Virus record (IMG/VR): IMGVR_UViG_3300026077_000371
Span: 1 to 21,248 of that record
Reading direction: 5' to 3' (one strand)
Length of the DNA: 21,248 nucleotides
DNA from: a virus
The notes below the pieces were generated by a model, which made no database searches, was not told the origin of the DNA, and saw only the letters and a list, made by a program, of their open reading frames with translations. The position numbers and the translations under genes were made by a program. Below, piece by piece: positions 1 through 18,037 of this stretch (position 1 is the first letter of the stretch; the number at the start of each line of letters is the position of its first letter).

Positions 1-11
1 CACTAAGCATT

Positions 12-40
12 AAAGCACCTCTACAACTGGGGTGCTTTTT
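12..40 (+). terminator. Rho-independent terminator
   Basis: AAAGCACC (12-19) can pair with GGTGCTTT (31-38) to give an 8-bp stem, followed by a T run at 36-40. This is a classic intrinsic terminator. It would end transcription arriving from the left, upstream of the first gene here, and so insulates the early region. Confidence 0.75.
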
Positions 41-100
41 CTATTGTGCTAATTGATACAAGGTGTAGTTTTCATTTCCATATGGACACATAACCCACAT

Positions 101-121
101 ATTTGGTGTACACTTAGCAAA
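101..121 (+). promoter_or_regulatory. SP6-like promoter or palindromic operator, copy 1
   Basis: The site contains TGGTGTACACT (104-114) followed by TAGCAAA. It matches the site at 2952-2972 at 19 of 21 positions, and its palindromic core recurs at 17952-17961. It resembles the SP6 RNA polymerase promoter (ATTTAGGTGACACTATAG) if one or two single-base gaps are allowed. It lies 60-80 bases upstream of the first gene. Function is inferred: either a phage RNA polymerase promoter or an operator for the MarR-like regulator at 2978. Confidence 0.45.
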
Positions 122-180
122 TCAAAGTTATACATAAAACGTGGAGAAATTCACGATACCTCTTCTCACTGGTTTATTAA

Positions 181-387
181 ATGAATGAATTGTATTTGGT
201 CTACGATGTTAAGTATCGAGATAGACAGGGAAATATAAGAATATTTAGTTGTTTAGATAGTGATAGCTGCTCTGCTAGGAGACAAGCTATGAGAATGGTT
301 AACGACCTCGCTGAGTATGAGGGTACTATTCTCACTGTTCTGGTTGCAAAAGACGATAAGGAGTGGAGTAATGGACTTACTGTATGA
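181..387 (+). CDS. small early protein, unknown function (68 aa)
   Basis: A 68-residue protein that I do not recognise. It reads as an alternation of short beta-like segments (LYLVYDVKYRD, IRIFSCLD) and one helix (ARRQAMRMVNDLAEY), with no Cys motif, signal peptide or membrane segment. The first ATG is at 181; a second in-frame ATG at 185 is out of frame and not an alternative. No good ribosome binding site precedes it. It overlaps the RNA polymerase start by 17 bases, which suggests translational coupling. In T7 this position holds small host-takeover genes, but nothing here resembles T7 gp0.3 or gp0.7. Confidence 0.6.
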   Translation: MNELYLVYDVKYRDRQGNIRIFSCLDSDSCSARRQAMRMVNDLAEYEGTILTVLVAKDDKEWSNGLTV

Positions 388-2716
388 TTTCGCAAGGCAA
401 CTAAAAGCCGAGACAAACCAGCGTGAGATCGGGAGACTGAAGAACACTAACGCAACTATAAAAGCAGAACAAAGAAGTTACGCATCAAACACTATATATG
501 GACAAACGATATTAAAACATCATACAGAATTAATAGCGAATGAAGTACAAGATAGATTGCATTTACTAAGGCGAGGTAAAGCCGCTGTTGATGCTGTTGT
601 AGTTAATAAACATCTGAAGGAAGCTAACCACGAGACCTTAGCGGTTATTGGCTTAAAGGTAATGCTCGATGTACTGGGGAAAGAGTCGAAGCCCGTCTTA
701 GCTGATCTCACTGTGCCTCTTGGTCAGGCTGTAGAAGTTGAGCTTCGCTTGTCTCACTATTTCAATGAGAACCCAGACCTTTATAAAAGAATCGAGAAGT
801 CTTTTCACTCTTCTACTGGTACAAGACAAAAGGCATCAGTTTTTAGACTGAGGTTCAATAGAGAGAATATTGATTGGAAGCCGTGGACACGGAGAGAAAG
901 ACATATCATTGGTTCCTTCTTGCTCGATTGTATAAATAGAAAAACAAGTTGGGTTAAAAAAGAAACCATCACCCAAGGCAAGAAATCAAAGAAAACTTGC
1001 ATGAGATATAGTGAGGACTTTCTTGGATTAAAGGAAGCAATCATAAACAAAGCGCAGCACCTAGCTTTTTGCGCTGAACCTATGTTCTGTGAACCACTTG
1101 ATTGGTCTAATGAAGAGTCTGGAGGTTGGCTAACAAGTGAGGTTAAAGACATGTTCCCACTGGTCAGAACTCATAGTGGATCATTACCAAGATGTAAGCA
1201 GGGAGATATTCCTATTCGCACTTTGAATAACATGCAACATGTGAAATTCAAGGTAGACACGAATACCCTTGCTGTTGTCAAGTGGGCTAAAGAAACTGGG
1301 CAAACGATAGGCAAGTTTCGTATTGAGAATCGTAAGGACTTTACAGCCACTCTTCCAGAACACCCATCTGAGGAGGAGCTAAAGGACTACAAACGTCTTA
1401 GACGTGACATTGAAAACTTTAATGCACAACTCGAACAGAAGAATTACAGGACATTAGAGACTGTATTAATTGCTGAGAAATTTGCTGATGAGCCTAAGTT
1501 CTATATCCCTATGTCTTTTGGATACCGAGGACGGATTTATTGTTTAACTCACTATTTAAATCCCCAAGGTACTGACTTAGATAAGTCACTATTGCTATTT
1601 GCGGACGAGTCACCAGTTGATGAATACTGGTTGGCTTTTCATTGTGCCACCACTCATGGTCTTGATAAGGAATCTTTGATGGACAGAGTTGCATGGACAA
1701 GAGCTAATACAGACCACATTACCAAAGTGGCTACAAACCCAATAGATAACAGAGACTTATGGATTACCGCAGAAGAACCTTGGACACACTTACAGAGTTG
1801 TTACTGGTATTGGTTATGTTGTATTGCGAAAAAAAGCAAGACATCAGGCTTAATGATTGGTATTGATGCTACTTGTTCAGCACTTCAACACCTATCCGCT
1901 GCTACCCGTTCCTACAGTGGAGGCTCACTTGTCAACCTAACACCCTCTGATAAACCTAAAGATGGTTATGCAGTTGTGGCAGAAGTATCTAAACAATACA
2001 TTCGTCCAGAGCTACATAAATACATAGATAGGAAAACTGTTAAGAGAGTATGTATGACCACTTCATATGGTCTTACTTATAGATCTGCTAAAGGATACAT
2101 AAGAGAAGCACTAATAGAAAAAGGCTGTGACTTGTCACAAACTGGAGTACTTAAAGAAGTAACCGATGCTGTGTACCGCAAAGCTGTACCAGAAGTCTTT
2201 GATGGTGCTATTAAACTTATGAATTTCTGGAGGACTATACCTAAACAAGTACTTGAATCACGAGACCGAATACAGTGGACAACACCGAGCGGCTTTGAAG
2301 TGGTGCAAGACTTAAGGTTCTCACAAACAACAAGAGTTGACACACGACTGATGGGATCAGTCATTGCATGCCAACTCGCTACTGGGTGGGGTAAGCCCGA
2401 TATGCAACATCACATCGGAGCTATAAGCCCAAATATAGTACATAGCTGGGACTCATCGTTAATTCATCTCACTTTTAGTGAGCCTGAGTTCACAAATGGT
2501 AACATTCCATTCGCTTGTGTACATGATTGTGTGCTTGGAAGATCATCTGACATGACATTTATTTCTAAACTTGTGCGTCAAAAGTTTGTTGATATGTATA
2601 AACAAAACATATTAATGGAATGGTGTGAACAAGTTGGAGTAACTTTTGATGAATCAGTAATGGTTAATACGTTAAATATTCAAGATGTTCTTTTAAGCGA
2701 TTACTTTTTTTGTTAA
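371..2716 (+). CDS. T7-like single-subunit RNA polymerase
   Basis: DNA-directed RNA polymerase of the T7/SP6 family, which transcribes middle and late phage genes from phage promoters. All catalytic motifs are visible: YRGRIY with NPQGTD (T7 WRGRVY/NPQGND); motif A with the metal-binding Asp in GIDATCSALQH (D499, T7 D537); motif B in KRVCMTTSYG (K558 and Y566, T7 K631 and Y639); PNIVHSWDSS; and motif C in VHDC (D719, T7 D812). The ATG at 371 is chosen because GGAGTGGAG (360-368) precedes it. The reading frame is open further upstream to 317, but that extension overlaps the preceding gene and lacks such a site. At 781 aa it is shorter than T7 (883), in line with cyanophage homologues. The 49-aa gene begins immediately after the stop. 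Confidence 0.97.
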   Translation: MDLLYDFARQLKAETNQREIGRLKNTNATIKAEQRSYASNTIYGQTILKHHTELIANEVQDRLHLLRRGKAAVDAVVVNKHLKEANHETLAVIGLKVMLDVLGKESKPVLADLTVPLGQAVEVELRLSHYFNENPDLYKRIEKSFHSSTGTRQKASVFRLRFNRENIDWKPWTRRERHIIGSFLLDCINRKTSWVKKETITQGKKSKKTCMRYSEDFLGLKEAIINKAQHLAFCAEPMFCEPLDWSNEESGGWLTSEVKDMFPLVRTHSGSLPRCKQGDIPIRTLNNMQHVKFKVDTNTLAVVKWAKETGQTIGKFRIENRKDFTATLPEHPSEEELKDYKRLRRDIENFNAQLEQKNYRTLETVLIAEKFADEPKFYIPMSFGYRGRIYCLTHYLNPQGTDLDKSLLLFADESPVDEYWLAFHCATTHGLDKESLMDRVAWTRANTDHITKVATNPIDNRDLWITAEEPWTHLQSCYWYWLCCIAKKSKTSGLMIGIDATCSALQHLSAATRSYSGGSLVNLTPSDKPKDGYAVVAEVSKQYIRPELHKYIDRKTVKRVCMTTSYGLTYRSAKGYIREALIEKGCDLSQTGVLKEVTDAVYRKAVPEVFDGAIKLMNFWRTIPKQVLESRDRIQWTTPSGFEVVQDLRFSQTTRVDTRLMGSVIACQLATGWGKPDMQHHIGAISPNIVHSWDSSLIHLTFSEPEFTNGNIPFACVHDCVLGRSSDMTFISKLVRQKFVDMYKQNILMEWCEQVGVTFDESVMVNTLNIQDVLLSDYFFC

Positions 2717-2866
2717 ATGAAAAAACCGAAACCGCCTGAAAATGCAACGCTTGTAGAGCGTATTCAATTCTATGTAGATAACAATCAGATTATTGAGGCT
2801 AAAACCTTAGCACTTCTAGGGGACACTTTGGAGGAAGCATTTAGCTGGGATACAGAATTTATCTAA
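2717..2866 (+). CDS. small protein, unknown function (49 aa)
   Basis: Its ATG follows the polymerase stop with no gap, so it is probably translated by re-initiation. The 49-residue product starts with a basic Pro-rich stretch (KKPKPPENA), continues with a helix-like segment, and has an acidic C-terminal part (LEEAFSWDTEFI). No known motif is recognised. It lies between the polymerase gene and the AT-rich gap before the regulator. Coding status is supported by the tight spacing and a normal composition; the function is unknown. Confidence 0.6.
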   Translation: MKKPKPPENATLVERIQFYVDNNQIIEAKTLALLGDTLEEAFSWDTEFI

Positions 2867-2977
2867 GTTTTGTATAAAAGGCGACTCACTGTTCTGAGTT
2901 TGAACTATAGTTTAAATAACAATTTGTATCGGCTACTACTTTAAATTAAGTATCTGGTGTACACTCAGGAAAGTGAA
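2867..2977. other. AT-rich intergenic gap, candidate replication origin
   Basis: A 111-base gap with no gene in an otherwise packed genome. Bases 2901-2950 are about 76% A+T and include TATAGTTTAAAT. The gap ends in the second copy of the GGTGTACAC motif. In T7 the primary replication origin lies just downstream of the RNA polymerase gene, in an AT-rich block next to phage promoters. The position and composition here are the same in kind, but origin function is inference only. Confidence 0.3.
2952..2973 (+). promoter_or_regulatory. SP6-like promoter or palindromic operator, copy 2
   Basis: CTGGTGTACACTCAGGAAAG lies at 2954-2973, nearly identical to the copy at 101-121. The 10-bp core GGTGTACACT (2956-2965) is almost perfectly palindromic. 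If transcription began at the GG of GGAAAG, the leader before the regulator's ATG at 2978 would be only about 10 bases and would begin inside its ribosome binding site. That favours an operator, or a promoter that mainly serves genes further downstream. Confidence 0.45.
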
Positions 2978-3334
2978 ATGCCAAGTCCCATTACTAACCA
3001 ATCAGCCCACAAAGCATACATGGTCATGGAGTTACTACGCTCCTCGGGTGAGCGAGAGTTTCCTATGCAACTGGCATCATGCTTTTTTTATATAGCTGCA
3101 CATGATGGTTGCGAACAGCAAGAATTAATCGACGCTGTTAACATCAGTCATTCGTCAGTAAGTAGAAATGTATCTTGGTTAGGTGGAAAACACCGCCTTG
3201 ATAATAGAAAGGGCTTAGAATTAGTAAGTCGAGAACGTAACCCAAAAAATTACAAATCTTGGCTGCTGTACCTTACACCAAAGGGACGGCAATGGGCGAA
3301 GCAGATCGAAAATTTACTCACTGTTTCCGCATGA
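2978..3334 (+). CDS. MarR-like winged-helix transcriptional regulator
   Basis: A 118-residue protein with the pattern of MarR-type DNA-binding proteins. It has a helix-turn-helix at about residues 47-68 (QQELIDAVNISHSSVSRNVSWL region), a basic wing at about 79-100, then LTPKGRQWAKQIE, which resembles the conserved MarR end of the wing and following helix. The ATG at 2978 is chosen over an upstream GTG at 2957 because AGGAAAG (2967-2973) precedes it and the GTG lies inside the palindromic motif. The stop overlaps the integrase ATG (ATGA), so the two are co-translated. The likely role is control of integration or early phage transcription; target and ligand are unknown. Confidence 0.75.
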   Translation: MPSPITNQSAHKAYMVMELLRSSGEREFPMQLASCFFYIAAHDGCEQQELIDAVNISHSSVSRNVSWLGGKHRLDNRKGLELVSRERNPKNYKSWLLYLTPKGRQWAKQIENLLTVSA

Positions 3335-4323
3335 CCAGACAAATAACCGTGAAGGACTGTATAGACCATACAGCCCGTTCTCACTGGAAAAACATGAGAA
3401 GTTATAAAACTTCCATGATGTATGCAAAACTATTTATGGATTGCAGAAGTCCATCAACACCTATTAAAAAGTTGTTGAAGGGCGATTACTGGATTAAAAC
3501 TCAGAACATGCTTCTGGAGGATCATCCACGCTGGACACATGCGACTGTGAATAGAACAATCACAGCGGCTCGCACCGCTATTAACAAGGCTAGAAAAGCT
3601 GGACTACATGAATTTCTTCTACCTGAGATTGATAAGTTGAAGGAGAATAAGTGTCGTATGGTTTGGTTAACTAGAAGCCAAGTTGATAACATAGCCAATG
3701 TTGCTGAAGAGATCTTTGATATGAAAGATTTAAGTGATGCGATTCTTGTTAGTGCCTATACAGGTATCAGACAAGATGAACTACTTAAATTAAGAGTTAA
3801 AGATTTAGATCAACATCACAAATCTCTCCATGTTGGAGGGATGCAATATCTAGTAACCAAGGCTAATGAAATTAGACATTTGCCTATTGGTGAAATCAAC
3901 CGAATATGGGACATTCTTAATACAAGATGTACTCACCTCGATTCACGAGACAGAATATTCGGAGACTGTTGGCGTAATGGTCAAGCCTTACGAAGACAGT
4001 TCTACAAAGTCCGTGACTATTGTGGACTAGATGATGGAGTAGTTTGGCATACTCTTCGTCATAGTTACGGAACATGGTTGGCAGAGACTGAATCGGTCAG
4101 TACGATTCAAGCTTTGATGGGACATGCTTCAAGCACTACCACTGAGCGTTATGTTAAGGTCAACCCAACCAGACTAAGAACAGCATTATCTTCACTGAAT
4201 GACAAACAGCCAAATGAGTTTGCTTCAGTGTCCGATGATATGATTTCCGAGTTGAAAGCCCAGATCAAAAAAGAATTGATGCTGGAGTTTCTCAATAAGG
4301 ATAAAACCAGCTTAACCGCATAG
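3331..4323 (+). CDS. int: tyrosine recombinase / phage integrase
   Basis: Site-specific recombinase of the lambda integrase family, about 330 aa. The catalytic set is complete: Arg in YTGIRQDELL (R147), Lys in TKANEIRH (K177), HTLR (H240, R243), His in LMGHASS (H265) and the nucleophile Tyr in TERYVKV (Y274). An N-terminal SAM-like DNA-binding domain precedes it (about residues 1-110). The ATG at 3331 overlaps the regulator stop as ATGA; an upstream in-frame ATG at 3295 would add 12 residues and is less likely. A region of inverted repeats and a strong terminator follow directly. Integrases occur in P-SSP7-type cyanophages, although lysogeny has rarely been shown for them. Confidence 0.93.
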   Translation: MTRQITVKDCIDHTARSHWKNMRSYKTSMMYAKLFMDCRSPSTPIKKLLKGDYWIKTQNMLLEDHPRWTHATVNRTITAARTAINKARKAGLHEFLLPEIDKLKENKCRMVWLTRSQVDNIANVAEEIFDMKDLSDAILVSAYTGIRQDELLKLRVKDLDQHHKSLHVGGMQYLVTKANEIRHLPIGEINRIWDILNTRCTHLDSRDRIFGDCWRNGQALRRQFYKVRDYCGLDDGVVWHTLRHSYGTWLAETESVSTIQALMGHASSTTTERYVKVNPTRLRTALSSLNDKQPNEFASVSDDMISELKAQIKKELMLEFLNKDKTSLTA

Positions 4324-4332
4324 GTTAAGATT

Positions 4333-4405
4333 AACAGTAGATCTCGGCTAATTGCTTTAGTTGTGTTTAGTGGGTTAGCCGAGATCCCCTGCTATCGCTA
4401 CTGTT
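4333..4405. repeat. long inverted repeat after int, candidate attP region
   Basis: GATCTCGGCTAA (4340-4351) and TTAGCCGAGATC (4375-4386) form a perfect 12-bp inverted repeat with a 23-base loop. An outer arm AACAGTAG (4333-4340) matches CTACTGTT (4398-4405). Smaller inverted repeats flank it: GTTAA-GA-TTAAC (4324-4335) and TTAAGT-CC-ACTTAA (4441-4454). Position directly behind the integrase gene suggests an attachment or recombinase-binding region. I see no tRNA 3' end here of the kind reported for P-SSP7, so the core site is undefined. It could also be a structured RNA or a processing site. Confidence 0.45.
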
Positions 4406-4468
4406 TAAACAGCACACGCTGGTTTTAGGTTCTGGCATATTTAAGTCCACTTAACCAACTGAAAACTA

Positions 4469-4506
4469 CCTCGTATAGATAACTTCCTTTCTATACGGGG
4501 TTTTTT
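4469..4506 (+). terminator. Rho-independent terminator after int
   Basis: CCTCGTATAGA (4469-4479) pairs with TCTATACGGGG (4490-4500), giving 11 bp with one G-T pair and a 10-base loop, followed by six T (4501-4506). It separates the regulator-integrase module from the replication operon. Confidence 0.88.
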
Positions 4507-4539
4507 AGTGTCTATTCTCAATTACAGGTATGACCTAAA

Positions 4540-4707
4540 ATGAGCTGTAAAAAACCAATAACAATCGAACAGCGGGAAATAGACCGCATGAGTGCTAATG
4601 AGTACTCTTTTTTTTTGGCTCACGGCGATGATGCCTTGGACAAAAAGAAACTAAACGAAGCTGAGTACGAAAGGTACTTAGCCAGAAATCTTATTTACGA
4701 CATCTAA
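4540..4707 (+). CDS. small acidic/helical protein, unknown function (55 aa)
   Basis: First gene after the terminator and probably the first of the replication operon. The 55-residue product has a Cys/Lys-rich start, then a helix-rich body with many charged residues (KKKLNEAEYERYLARN). No known family is recognised. A run of nine T within the Ser-Phe-Phe-Leu codons (about 4608-4616) is a possible slippage point, but the frame is open through it. It ends four bases before the SSB ATG, so the two are presumably coupled. Confidence 0.6.
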   Translation: MSCKKPITIEQREIDRMSANEYSFFLAHGDDALDKKKLNEAEYERYLARNLIYDI

Positions 4708-4711
4708 GCCT

Positions 4712-5281
4712 ATGGCAAACGAGTATATCTTCCCGACCAAACTAGAAGGATACATAAGAGTTGATGAAAATGGTGGTAAGTACGACAACCGCTGCTTTTC
4801 ATTCACCCTACCAACCGACATCCGTACAAAAATGGATGAGGATAGGGAACAATTACTAGCTTGGCTCGAAACAAAACCAAATGCAAAAAGCGCCGTCACG
4901 AGACCTGCAAAATGGGAAGGGAAAGACGTAGTTTCATACAACTATGACGGCAAGAAAAGTAAAGCTCCAATCTTTGTTGATACAGAAGGAACACCTTTAG
5001 GAAAGGACGTTCTTAAATCACTGGGTAAAGGATCAGAAGTACAGTTAATAGTGCAGCAAAAGCCGTATTGTGTAAGCGGTGTAAAGGGAACTTCCTTTCA
5101 TGTAATAGCTGCAAGAGTACATAAGCTGGTTACTTTCTCAGGTGCATCAGACAAAGGAGAGTTATCTATAGAGGACATCAACAGTATGTTCCTTAAAACT
5201 GAGGGATATAAACAAGATCAACCAGTAGTAACCGATGCTTCACCGAGCAGTTACGAACCGTCCTACGAAGTTGATTTCTAA
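4712..5281 (+). CDS. ssb: gp2.5-like single-stranded DNA binding protein
   Basis: 189 aa, placed directly before the gp3-like endonuclease as in T7. The body has the mixed beta-strand pattern of the OB-fold gp2.5 family (FVDTEGTPL, GSEVQLIVQQKPY, VKGTSFHVIAARVHKLV). The C-terminus is acidic and ends in an aromatic residue (SYEVDF). In T7 the acidic tail and terminal Phe of gp2.5 contact the DNA polymerase and helicase. Expected role: coating single strands at the fork and aiding annealing. Its last base is the first base of the next gene's ATG. Identification rests on position, length and tail rather than on strong motifs. Confidence 0.82.
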   Translation: MANEYIFPTKLEGYIRVDENGGKYDNRCFSFTLPTDIRTKMDEDREQLLAWLETKPNAKSAVTRPAKWEGKDVVSYNYDGKKSKAPIFVDTEGTPLGKDVLKSLGKGSEVQLIVQQKPYCVSGVKGTSFHVIAARVHKLVTFSGASDKGELSIEDINSMFLKTEGYKQDQPVVTDASPSSYEPSYEVDF

Positions 5282-17272: not shown

Positions 17273-17751
17273 AAGTAATAGACAACTTCTTACCTGATGA
17301 TGTTTTCGAGAATATTCAAAACAAACTCATGGATACAATGTGGATATTTCAGAAAACTGTAGCTATAAAAAGAGATAAAGAAGAATTTGAAAATAGTTTT
17401 TACACACATGTTGCTTATAAGAATGATGTACCAGTATCAGAAATGTTCGAGCATCTTCAATATTTCCATACTGATAAAAGACTTGGTTTAAAATCAATGC
17501 TTAGATTAGTTATAAACGCCTACCCTTACACACCTAAATTGTATGAACATTCAAATCATTATGATTTTTTCTACGAACATAAGGGTGCGATATTGTATCT
17601 AAACACCTGTGATGGTTATACTTTTGCTGAAGGACAGAGAGTTCAATCAATAGCAAATCGTGTACTTTTACATGACCCTTCAAACCTGCATCACAGTACT
17701 ACAACTACTAATGCACAAAGAAGAGTTATATGTAATTTAAATTATTTTTAA
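17269..17751 (+). CDS. 2OG-Fe(II) dioxygenase-like protein B
   Basis: 160 aa starting at TTG 17269, overlapping the previous stop (TTGA). It begins KVIDNFLPDDVFENIQ, a common opening of phage prolyl-hydroxylase-like proteins. The motif HYDF (H97, D99) gives the HxD iron pair, followed by GAILYLNTCDGYTFAEGQRVQS, then the distal His (H141 or H142) and Arg (R151/R152) in NAQRRVICNLNYF. So the full HxD...H...R set is present, and this protein looks catalytically intact, unlike its neighbour. Substrate unknown. Together with gene A it occupies the interval where psbA lies in P-SSP7. Confidence 0.85.
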   Translation: MKVIDNFLPDDVFENIQNKLMDTMWIFQKTVAIKRDKEEFENSFYTHVAYKNDVPVSEMFEHLQYFHTDKRLGLKSMLRLVINAYPYTPKLYEHSNHYDFFYEHKGAILYLNTCDGYTFAEGQRVQSIANRVLLHDPSNLHHSTTTTNAQRRVICNLNYF

Positions 17752-17760
17752 TGCTACGTC

Positions 17761-17810
17761 CGTTCATCCCTTCGGGGACGCATGAAAACTAAGCATGGAA
17801 CGGGGCTTAG
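17761..17810 (+). promoter_or_regulatory. glutamine riboswitch, downstream-peptide type
   Basis: The RNA matches the glutamine-binding 'downstream-peptide' motif of marine cyanobacteria. P1 pairs CGTTC (17761-17765) with GAACG (17798-17802). A hairpin TCCC-TTCG-GGGA (17767-17778) sits inside it. A pseudoknot joins CTAAGC (17789-17794) to GCTTAG (17805-17810). The invariant GTTCATCC, GGACG and GGAACGGG segments are present. In cyanobacteria these riboswitches sense glutamine, a nitrogen-status signal, and control glutamine synthetase inhibitors or small peptides. Here the ribosome binding site GGAG (17816-17819) of an 18-aa peptide lies six bases after the pseudoknot, so control of translation is likely. 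Confidence 0.88.
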
Positions 17811-17825
17811 TATATGGAGATGACA

Positions 17826-17882
17826 ATGAAAAAAGTTACTTTCGTATATCGTGGCGTTGCTTACACAAGAGTAATCGGTTAG
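17826..17882 (+). CDS. 18-aa downstream peptide, DUF4278/PirA-like N-terminus
   Basis: Short open frame just after the riboswitch. ATG 17826 is six bases from GGAG (17816-17819); an ATG at 17820 directly abuts that site and is less likely. The product MKKVTFVYRGVAYTRVIG matches the start of DUF4278 proteins (YRGxxY), a cyanobacterial family that includes PirA, a PII-interacting regulator of arginine synthesis controlled by nitrogen supply. Only the first strand-turn-strand of that family remains. The role of the phage peptide is unknown; it may tune nitrogen assimilation of the host. Too short for gene finders. Confidence 0.7.
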   Translation: MKKVTFVYRGVAYTRVIG

Positions 17883-17914
17883 GCGATCTTGGGGGGTTCG
17901 ATTCCTCCCTACTC
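17869..17914 (+). ncRNA. tRNA-like fold without anticodon arm
   Basis: GAGTA (17869-17873) pairs with TACTC (17910-17914) as an acceptor-like stem. Inside are a D-arm-like hairpin ATCG-GTTAGG-CGAT (17874-17887), three bases, and a T-arm GGGGGG-TTCGATT-CCTCCC (17891-17909) with the exact 7-base T-loop sequence. The T-stem runs straight into the acceptor strand, as in tRNA. There is no room for an anticodon arm and no CCA follows, so it is not a normal tRNA. It overlaps the last codons of the 18-aa peptide. It could be a transfer RNA remnant, an attachment site, an RNA-processing or stability signal, or part of a tmRNA-like domain. Confidence 0.45.
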
Positions 17915-17946
17915 AATTTCCCATTAGCCCGATACGTCGGATAACT

Positions 17947-17969
17947 ACTGGGGTGTACACCTCGGAAAG
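17947..17969 (+). promoter_or_regulatory. SP6-like promoter or palindromic operator, copy 3
   Basis: ACTGGGGTGTACACCTCGGAAAG contains the same core GGTGTACAC as the copies at 105 and 2956, here as a perfect 10-bp palindrome (17952-17961), followed by GGAAAG as in copy 2. It lies about 70 bases upstream of the capsid ATG, the place of the strong T7 promoter phi10. That position supports a phage RNA polymerase promoter for the capsid gene. Confidence 0.45.
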
Positions 17970-18037
17970 AGGGTTAAATCTTTCAAACCTTAGACATGTC
18001 GAAATTGTAAATATCTTTTTTATAGGAGTTAAAGACC

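Follow-up and report, generated by a model that had tools for sequence, protein, structure and literature searches.

Oriented repeats beside a MarR-fold regulator in a T7-like phage genome of cyanopodovirus kinship: possible asymmetric operators

The window analyzed here, a stretch of 21,248 nucleotides of viral DNA, comes from the genome of a T7-like phage that is a relative of the marine cyanopodoviruses; its RNA polymerase shares 49.7% identity with the SS120-1 enzyme and 45.0% with the Syn5 enzyme. A small ORF, the RNA polymerase gene, a small gene, a regulator gene, the integrase gene and the replication genes follow one another (Table 1). The question raised by this locus is whether the palindromic site just before the regulator gene, which recurs ahead of the RNA polymerase unit, is an operator of that regulator. 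According to the accessible part of PMC8776855, stable lysogeny has not been seen in the T7-like cyanophages, which integrate, and no homologue of a known repressor turned up when these phages were searched for one. Repression of the polymerase by a MarR-type protein encoded close to the integrase has already been proposed for T7-like phages (PMC10134795, citing Boeckman 2022), and in the open-licence literature we found no description of the oriented repeat treated here as the target of a regulator. A named regulator together with predicted operators makes the balance between integration and lysis directly testable.

Table 1 Features of the window that bear on the operator question.
Feature	Position	Strand	Basis
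Site 1, TGGTGTACACTTAGCAAA, upstream of the RNA polymerase unit	104..121	+	sequence; G001, G002
Small ORF, 3' of site 1, ahead of the polymerase gene	181..387	+	ORF list
Single-subunit phage RNA polymerase	371..2716	+	
Probable Syn5-type phage RNA polymerase promoter, TCATTACCAAGATGTAAGCAGGGA, within the polymerase gene	1181..1204	+	
Small gene between polymerase and regulator, phrog_24878	2717..2866	+	
Site 2, oriented element TGGTGTACACTCAGGAAAG before the regulator start	2955..2973	+	sequence; 6-sequence alignment
MarR-fold regulator (predicted structure), phrog_9665	2978..3334	+	
Tyrosine integrase	3331..4323	+	PF00589; start inferred from sequence
Family-motif match 3' of the integrase gene, 14.2 bits	4441..4458	+	PWM
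Weak family-motif match at the scaffold gene start, 7.5 bits	15462..15479	+	PWM
Glutamine-II riboswitch upstream of the capsid leader	17758..17811	+	RF01704, 50.6 bits
Site 3, GGTGTACACC, hairpin of the capsid-leader RNA	17952..17961	+	

The regulator and its predicted fold

The regulator gene had been called MarR-like, and its predicted structure bears this out by showing the MarR winged-helix fold. The model (pLDDT 74.6, pTM 0.68) has MexR and MarR as best Foldseek matches (E 1.5e-5), matches MarR chains across residues 1-115 and aligns to FabT in VIA-align with a Z of 13.0 and an rmsd of 2.7 (106 aligned), so that on this model the regulator is a MarR-fold protein. In Pfam the window regulator falls below the curated cut-off of MarR_2 (20.7 bits vs 27), and MarR_2 matches are found in 11 of 11 regulator homologues at E values up to 0.01.

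A homologue in P-SSP7 (79.5 bits), pMarR, likewise adjoins an integrase gene and is reported to be a DNA-binding dimer in which a conserved arginine, R67, is essential for binding (PMC9692554). By our own reading the window regulator family retains an S-R pair in the helix that matches the R67 helix. pMarR reportedly interacts with the alpha subunit of the host polymerase and raises rne expression; it differs from the regulator proposed here in its reported activation of the internal promoter of host rne, and the accessible text of that paper describes no phage operator motif (PMC9692554). We count against an operator reading both this reported role as an activator of host rne and the preference of MarR dimers, which usually bind symmetric sites (PMC9692554). 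In phage LUZ100 a MarR-like regulator is located upstream of the integrase, is cotranscribed with it and was proposed to repress the phage polymerase; LUZ100, however, is a Pseudomonas phage, the proposal is a hypothesis, and the accessible text describes no oriented repeat family (PMC10134795). In the window the likely ATG of the integrase overlaps the regulator stop. ARAGORN found no tRNA in the window, and an exact 17-mer search for an attP 3' of the integrase returned 16 stretches, none with a cyanobacterium in its title.

The conserved unit at sites 1 and 2

The original prediction placed a palindrome 13 bases before the regulator ATG, in overlap with the region of the ribosome binding site. 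The site is real: the 10-mer GGTGTACACT covers positions 2956-2965, and its inner 8 bp, GTGTACAC (2957-2964), form the perfect palindrome. The gap between the 10-mer and the ATG at 2978 is 12 bases, however, and the Shine-Dalgarno-like AGGAAAG (2967-2973) lies 3' of the palindrome without overlapping it; the whole site 2 element ends 4 bases before the ATG. In the mechanical ORF list the regulator frame begins at the GTG of the palindrome (2957), but the relatives do not conserve this frame, the distance from GTG to ATG being 19 bases in them and 21 here. The repetition ahead of the RNA polymerase unit was confirmed, with a second copy of the 10-mer at 105-114.

Exact copies of GTGTACAC occur three times in the window (at 106, 2957 and 17953), all outside nameable genes, where a dinucleotide model expects 0.26. 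When one mismatch is allowed, GGTGTACACT has four matches (17952 counted on both strands), a number reached in 4 of 100 shuffles. Since other 8-bp palindromes also recur in the window (CAATATTG four times and AAGTACTT three times), the palindrome count alone is indecisive, and position and conservation weigh more. TTTCCACT may bear some likeness to a DnaA box.

Conservation was assessed in an alignment upstream of the regulator, comprising the window together with five relatives in which the regulator shows 90-95% identity. The block TGTACACTNAG..AAG is invariant in all six sequences, while most other intergenic columns have diverged. This invariance at homologous positions within diverged surroundings makes a chance or low-information repeat without function very unlikely, even though the recurrence of further 8-mer palindromes would suit it. 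The outer G of GTGTACAC at site 2 is replaced by A in two of the six sequences, and the outer pair is also broken in the G003 counterpart of site 1; the palindrome is therefore not the conserved unit, and the conserved block is directional. Judged from these sequences, the palindromic form is most likely a feature of the window lineage. The idea of a palindrome common to the whole family was dropped after an exact 16-mer search of viral contigs, which gave 47 stretches, five of them in close relatives (G001, G002, G003) and the remainder with protein matches absent or only distant.

At the equivalent position of the polymerase unit G001 and G002 carry the site 1 block. G003 has the variant GTTTACACTTAGACAA near its contig end, which is presumably its site 1, an assignment that stays provisional because the contig stops 13 bases beyond. 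From site 1 in the window to the start of the next acceptable ORF the distance is 60 nt.

One alternative is a host sigma-70 promoter in which TACACT would serve as the -10 hexamer and the palindrome would be incidental; TACACT is invariant in the lineage and agrees with TATAAT at 4 of 6 bases. A simple consensus scan (-35/-10 at 16-18 nt) nevertheless gave no match at 2956 or 105, promoter-like matches in positions 1-4600 numbered three against 12.0 in shuffles, and a consistent -35 element was not seen in the six-sequence alignment, and we regard such a promoter as quite unlikely.

The third palindrome and the capsid leader

Three sites had been proposed. The palindrome at 17952 exists, yet we judge it to be a different element and rejected it as a third operator, because the palindrome varies between lineages and the capsid leader around it covaries as RNA. 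The leader alignment held 17 sequences including the window (16 of 24 distinct sequences plus L034) and omitted three near copies of the window (L029, L031, L032) and five leaders of other layout (L035, L043, L046, L059, L073). In these 17 leaders the three-hairpin structure has both-side changes in 9 of 12 pairs, and 86% of the leader cells pair, as against 30-47% when slid. Most of the covariation is carried by the flanking hairpins, the palindrome hairpin having a both-side change in one of its three pairs. The GGAAAG that makes site 3 look like site 2 belongs to the next stem, and the likeness was therefore judged coincidental. For the hairpin part of the leader Rfam reported no match. A repeat search with the site 3 core gave no second copy in G008 or Syn5, and further matches, counted irrespective of their setting, in G012 (two), G015 (one) and G016 (one).

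The capsid-gene leader (17750-18037) as a whole combines the Glutamine-II riboswitch, a short peptide ORF, a tRNA-like T-arm (by eye) and the three-hairpin RNA. In many relatives the centre of the hairpin is perfectly palindromic.

An oriented repeat family in related phages

Related phages carry a family repeat ahead of early and replication genes, with copy numbers that range from several to about 20. In the more distant phages this repeat occupies the place of the conserved block, mostly directly in front of the starts of early genes. Among the matches listed for SS120-1, TTCCACTAAGCCA stands about 290 nt upstream of the polymerase, before the small post-polymerase gene and before the regulator. 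A strict pattern of this SS120-1 element gave, in 23 genomes, 66 matches on the coding strand and 15 on the other, with 21 for the reversed and 11 for the complemented pattern. A position weight matrix (PWM; consensus TCACTTCCACTNARCCAA) was trained on 118 coding-strand sites from 8 genomes and run on 37 genomes; the window-clade genomes were absent from all training, and S-TIP28, obtained after the motif had been defined, was held out. Because training on the coding strand makes strand counts partly circular, the counts were repeated with one genome left out at a time and with strand-blind training.

At 9.5 bits the leave-one-genome-out counts (coding/other strand) were 24/1 in G024, 16/4 in G025, 19/3 in G026, 4/1 in G027, 13/3 in G016, 13/3 in G008, 16/4 in G015 and 10/4 in SS120-1, a coding-strand skew with p<0.02 (one-sided) in six of these eight genomes with a close regulator homologue; G027, a 25-kb fragment (p 0.19), and SS120-1 (p 0.09) were not significant. 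The held-out S-TIP28 gave 22/3. Strand-blind training gave 25/3 in G024, 15/8 in SS120-1, 26/3 in S-TIP28, 30/6 in S-CBP42, 17/5 in Syn5, 2/3 in the window, 4/7 in P60 and 9/9 in G012. G002, G004, G025, G026 and G027 are short contigs.

Within the window clade the counts were 3/3 in the window, 7/3 in G001, 3/3 in G002, 10/2 in G003 and 0/1 in G004, so that four of the five genomes, the window included, have no significant strand skew despite the regulator, and G003 alone is skewed. The family PWM gives site 1 a score of 3.7 bits and site 2 a score of 1.9 bits, which we count against the operator reading, and gives 12.6 bits for the G003 counterpart of site 1 and 6.6 bits for site 2 of G004. 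We infer that sites 1 and 2, although diverged, are members of the wider repeat family. A de novo search for oriented intergenic repeats, which is noisy, had the family motif among its top seeds in G008, G024, G026, S-CBP42 and, as a variant, G015; it was not among the top seeds in SS120-1, G016, G025, G027 or the window clade, where the leading seeds were A-rich, T-rich or other.

The site upstream of the regulator in G016, TTCCACTAGTGGAA, is a perfect palindrome. Syn5 and P60 (L006, L008), which lack the regulator, have different coding-strand-skewed, CA-rich intergenic repeats of the CTGATCACCATCATC type.

The phage RNA polymerase promoter

Promoters of the phage's own RNA polymerase were the reading that the original prediction set against an operator. 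Site 1 contains GCAAA, which resembles the Syn5 transcript start GCAAG, and the family motif, as CACTTCCACTCAACCAACCG, has been put forward in print as the promoter of the S-CBP42 polymerase on the strength of a PHIRE prediction (PMC11475235). The Syn5 polymerase has only two genomic promoters, ATTGGGCACCCGTAA followed by the start site (PMC3950665), and we find these copies at 4929, within the polymerase gene, and at 44797. A different two-copy element, specific to each lineage, has one copy about 790-860 nt into the polymerase gene in 14 of 16 genomes, as in Syn5; the exceptions are the window and G002, fragments that start shortly before the polymerase gene. G001 carries its copies at 3310 and 6431, where the best second match agrees at 23 of 24 positions and 200 mononucleotide shuffles never exceeded 18, and G003 has the upstream copy. 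The Syn5 promoter is, like the sites studied here, a short near-palindromic element in a related phage (PMC3950665), but its window counterpart is the element at 1181-1204, and sites 1 and 2 are not the Syn5-type element. As to the published prediction, six of the eight active enzymes are named in the accessible part of PMC11475235, and S-CBP42 (R2) is not among these six. The promoter reading, first favoured for its likeness to Syn5, was abandoned in view of the two-copy element elsewhere, and we consider it very unlikely. The probable polymerase promoter is thereby distinguished from the repeat predicted as the S-CBP42 promoter (PMC11475235).

Co-occurrence with the regulator and placement at gene starts

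Regulator homologues of 161-214 bits are encoded by the eight cross-validated genomes and S-TIP28. For comparison we used 23 genomes, 15 without a regulator match and 8 with a distant one (42-112 bits), and 21 of the 23 have no skew at p<0.05. The exceptions, both without a regulator match, are S-CBP42 (29/3) and, more weakly, Syn5 (11/3). As there are exceptions on both sides, the association of motif and regulator is a tendency only. A polymerase tree of 35 rows forces at least three changes in the presence of a close regulator, so the link is not the history of a single clade. S-CBP42 (L007) has the highest coding-strand motif count of the 37 genomes, and a regulator homologue was not found in it; either a recent loss or a different binder would explain its motif.

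A strict-motif scan of viral contigs returned at least 120 loci, and 23 of the 120 listed encode relatives of window proteins. Among the matches listed, all seven loci that extend upstream of the integrase encode the regulator; L213, truncated within the integrase, is uninformative. Outside the window clade, 14 of 15 regulators are preceded, at a distance of no more than 110 nt, by a site of at least 9.5 bits, the exception being G027 with 5.3 bits; among random 110-nt windows drawn from the nine genomes the proportion is 4.5%. These 15 regulators include L225, which is nearly identical to G015, and six L loci chosen for holding the motif somewhere; the scanned length was 75 nt generally, 110 nt for the six L loci and 150 nt for G008 and G016, and L193 (9.52) and S-TIP28 (9.73) barely exceed the threshold.

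When 75 nt upstream of each gene were scanned in nine genomes with aligned starts, sites of at least 9.5 bits were most frequent at the exonuclease (7 of 8), followed by the regulator (6 of 9), the small post-polymerase gene (5 of 9), the polymerase (4 of 9) and the ssDNA-binding protein (3 of 9), with a single one at the scaffold. In the same 75 nt of these genomes no site was found before the integrase, endonuclease, primase, DNA polymerase, MazG, reductase, portal, capsid or tail tube genes. The exonuclease start thus carries the motif more often than the regulator start, which speaks against an operator.

Sites of at least 14 bits in the nine genomes lie no more than 60 nt from a start codon in 82 of 101 cases and 0-4 nt from it in 25, counting open frames of at least 40 codons, as opposed to 47% and 5% of random positions. 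This placement fits both operators in short intergenic gaps and a signal at start codons. The main rival to the operator is a start-associated signal for translation or mRNA processing of early genes that works independently of the regulator. Besides the placement, with many copies abutting the ATG, the motif in S-CBP42 and Syn5 without a regulator and the other skewed CA-rich repeats of Syn5 and P60 argue for such a signal. On the other side, site 1 is 60 nt away from the next accepted ORF start, loose matches (by eye) are also found ahead of terminators 3' of the integrase in several genomes, and regulator and motif co-occur in lineages spread across the polymerase tree. The Start-Associated Sequences of cluster K mycobacteriophages are similar oriented repeats near the starts of non-structural genes, but they have another sequence and occur in another host group, with no regulator link described in the accessible text, and site 1 of the window is not at a start codon (PMC3203893). 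We consider a start-associated signal rather unlikely, although it was raised, and the operator reading lowered, by the cross-validation and the exonuclease count.

A possible stoperator-like operator

The operator model itself survives in altered form: the MarR fold, the block at both units, the alignment footprint and the co-occurrence speak for it, while the conserved palindrome and the capsid site fell away. The likeliest account, to which we give somewhat less than an even chance, is that sites 1 and 2 are asymmetric, stoperator-like operators of the neighbouring MarR-fold regulator and not a palindrome of the classical MarR kind. From the site 2 copy the regulator would control its own operon with the integrase by autoregulation, and from the site 1 copy, ahead of the RNA polymerase unit, it would hold down early transcription for as long as integration is possible, in the manner of stoperators. 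We infer both binding and repression by the regulator.

The stoperators of cluster A mycobacteriophages, bound by the L5/TipsytheTRex repressor, are comparable in being short asymmetric sites in many copies, located in short intergenic spaces with an orientation tied to transcription, next to a phage repressor gene (PMC9283540). In contrast, the cluster A repressor combines an HTH with a Stoperator domain and contacts its sites in monomeric form, whereas the candidate here has a predicted MarR fold, and the window has only two to four copies with a 3/3 strand count (PMC9283540). Doubtful in our opinion is the extension that T7-like cyanophages with an integrase carry a genome-wide repression network made up of a MarR-fold regulator and up to about 20 oriented asymmetric operators. 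With the same reserve we suggest that these operators would be positioned at early and replication starts, including the regulator gene and often the RNA polymerase unit, and, no more confidently, that the network would correspond to a stoperator system built on a MarR protein, with an operator sequence that drifts by lineage and is palindromic in that of the window.

Two further matches in the window deserve mention. Downstream of the integrase gene, positions 4441-4505 hold a family-motif match followed by a hairpin and a T-run. A weak second motif match (72-89, 9.6 bits) lies 32 bases upstream of site 1, and near the equivalent position G001 has TGTGCATTTAGGAAC and G002 has TGTGCATATAGGAAC.
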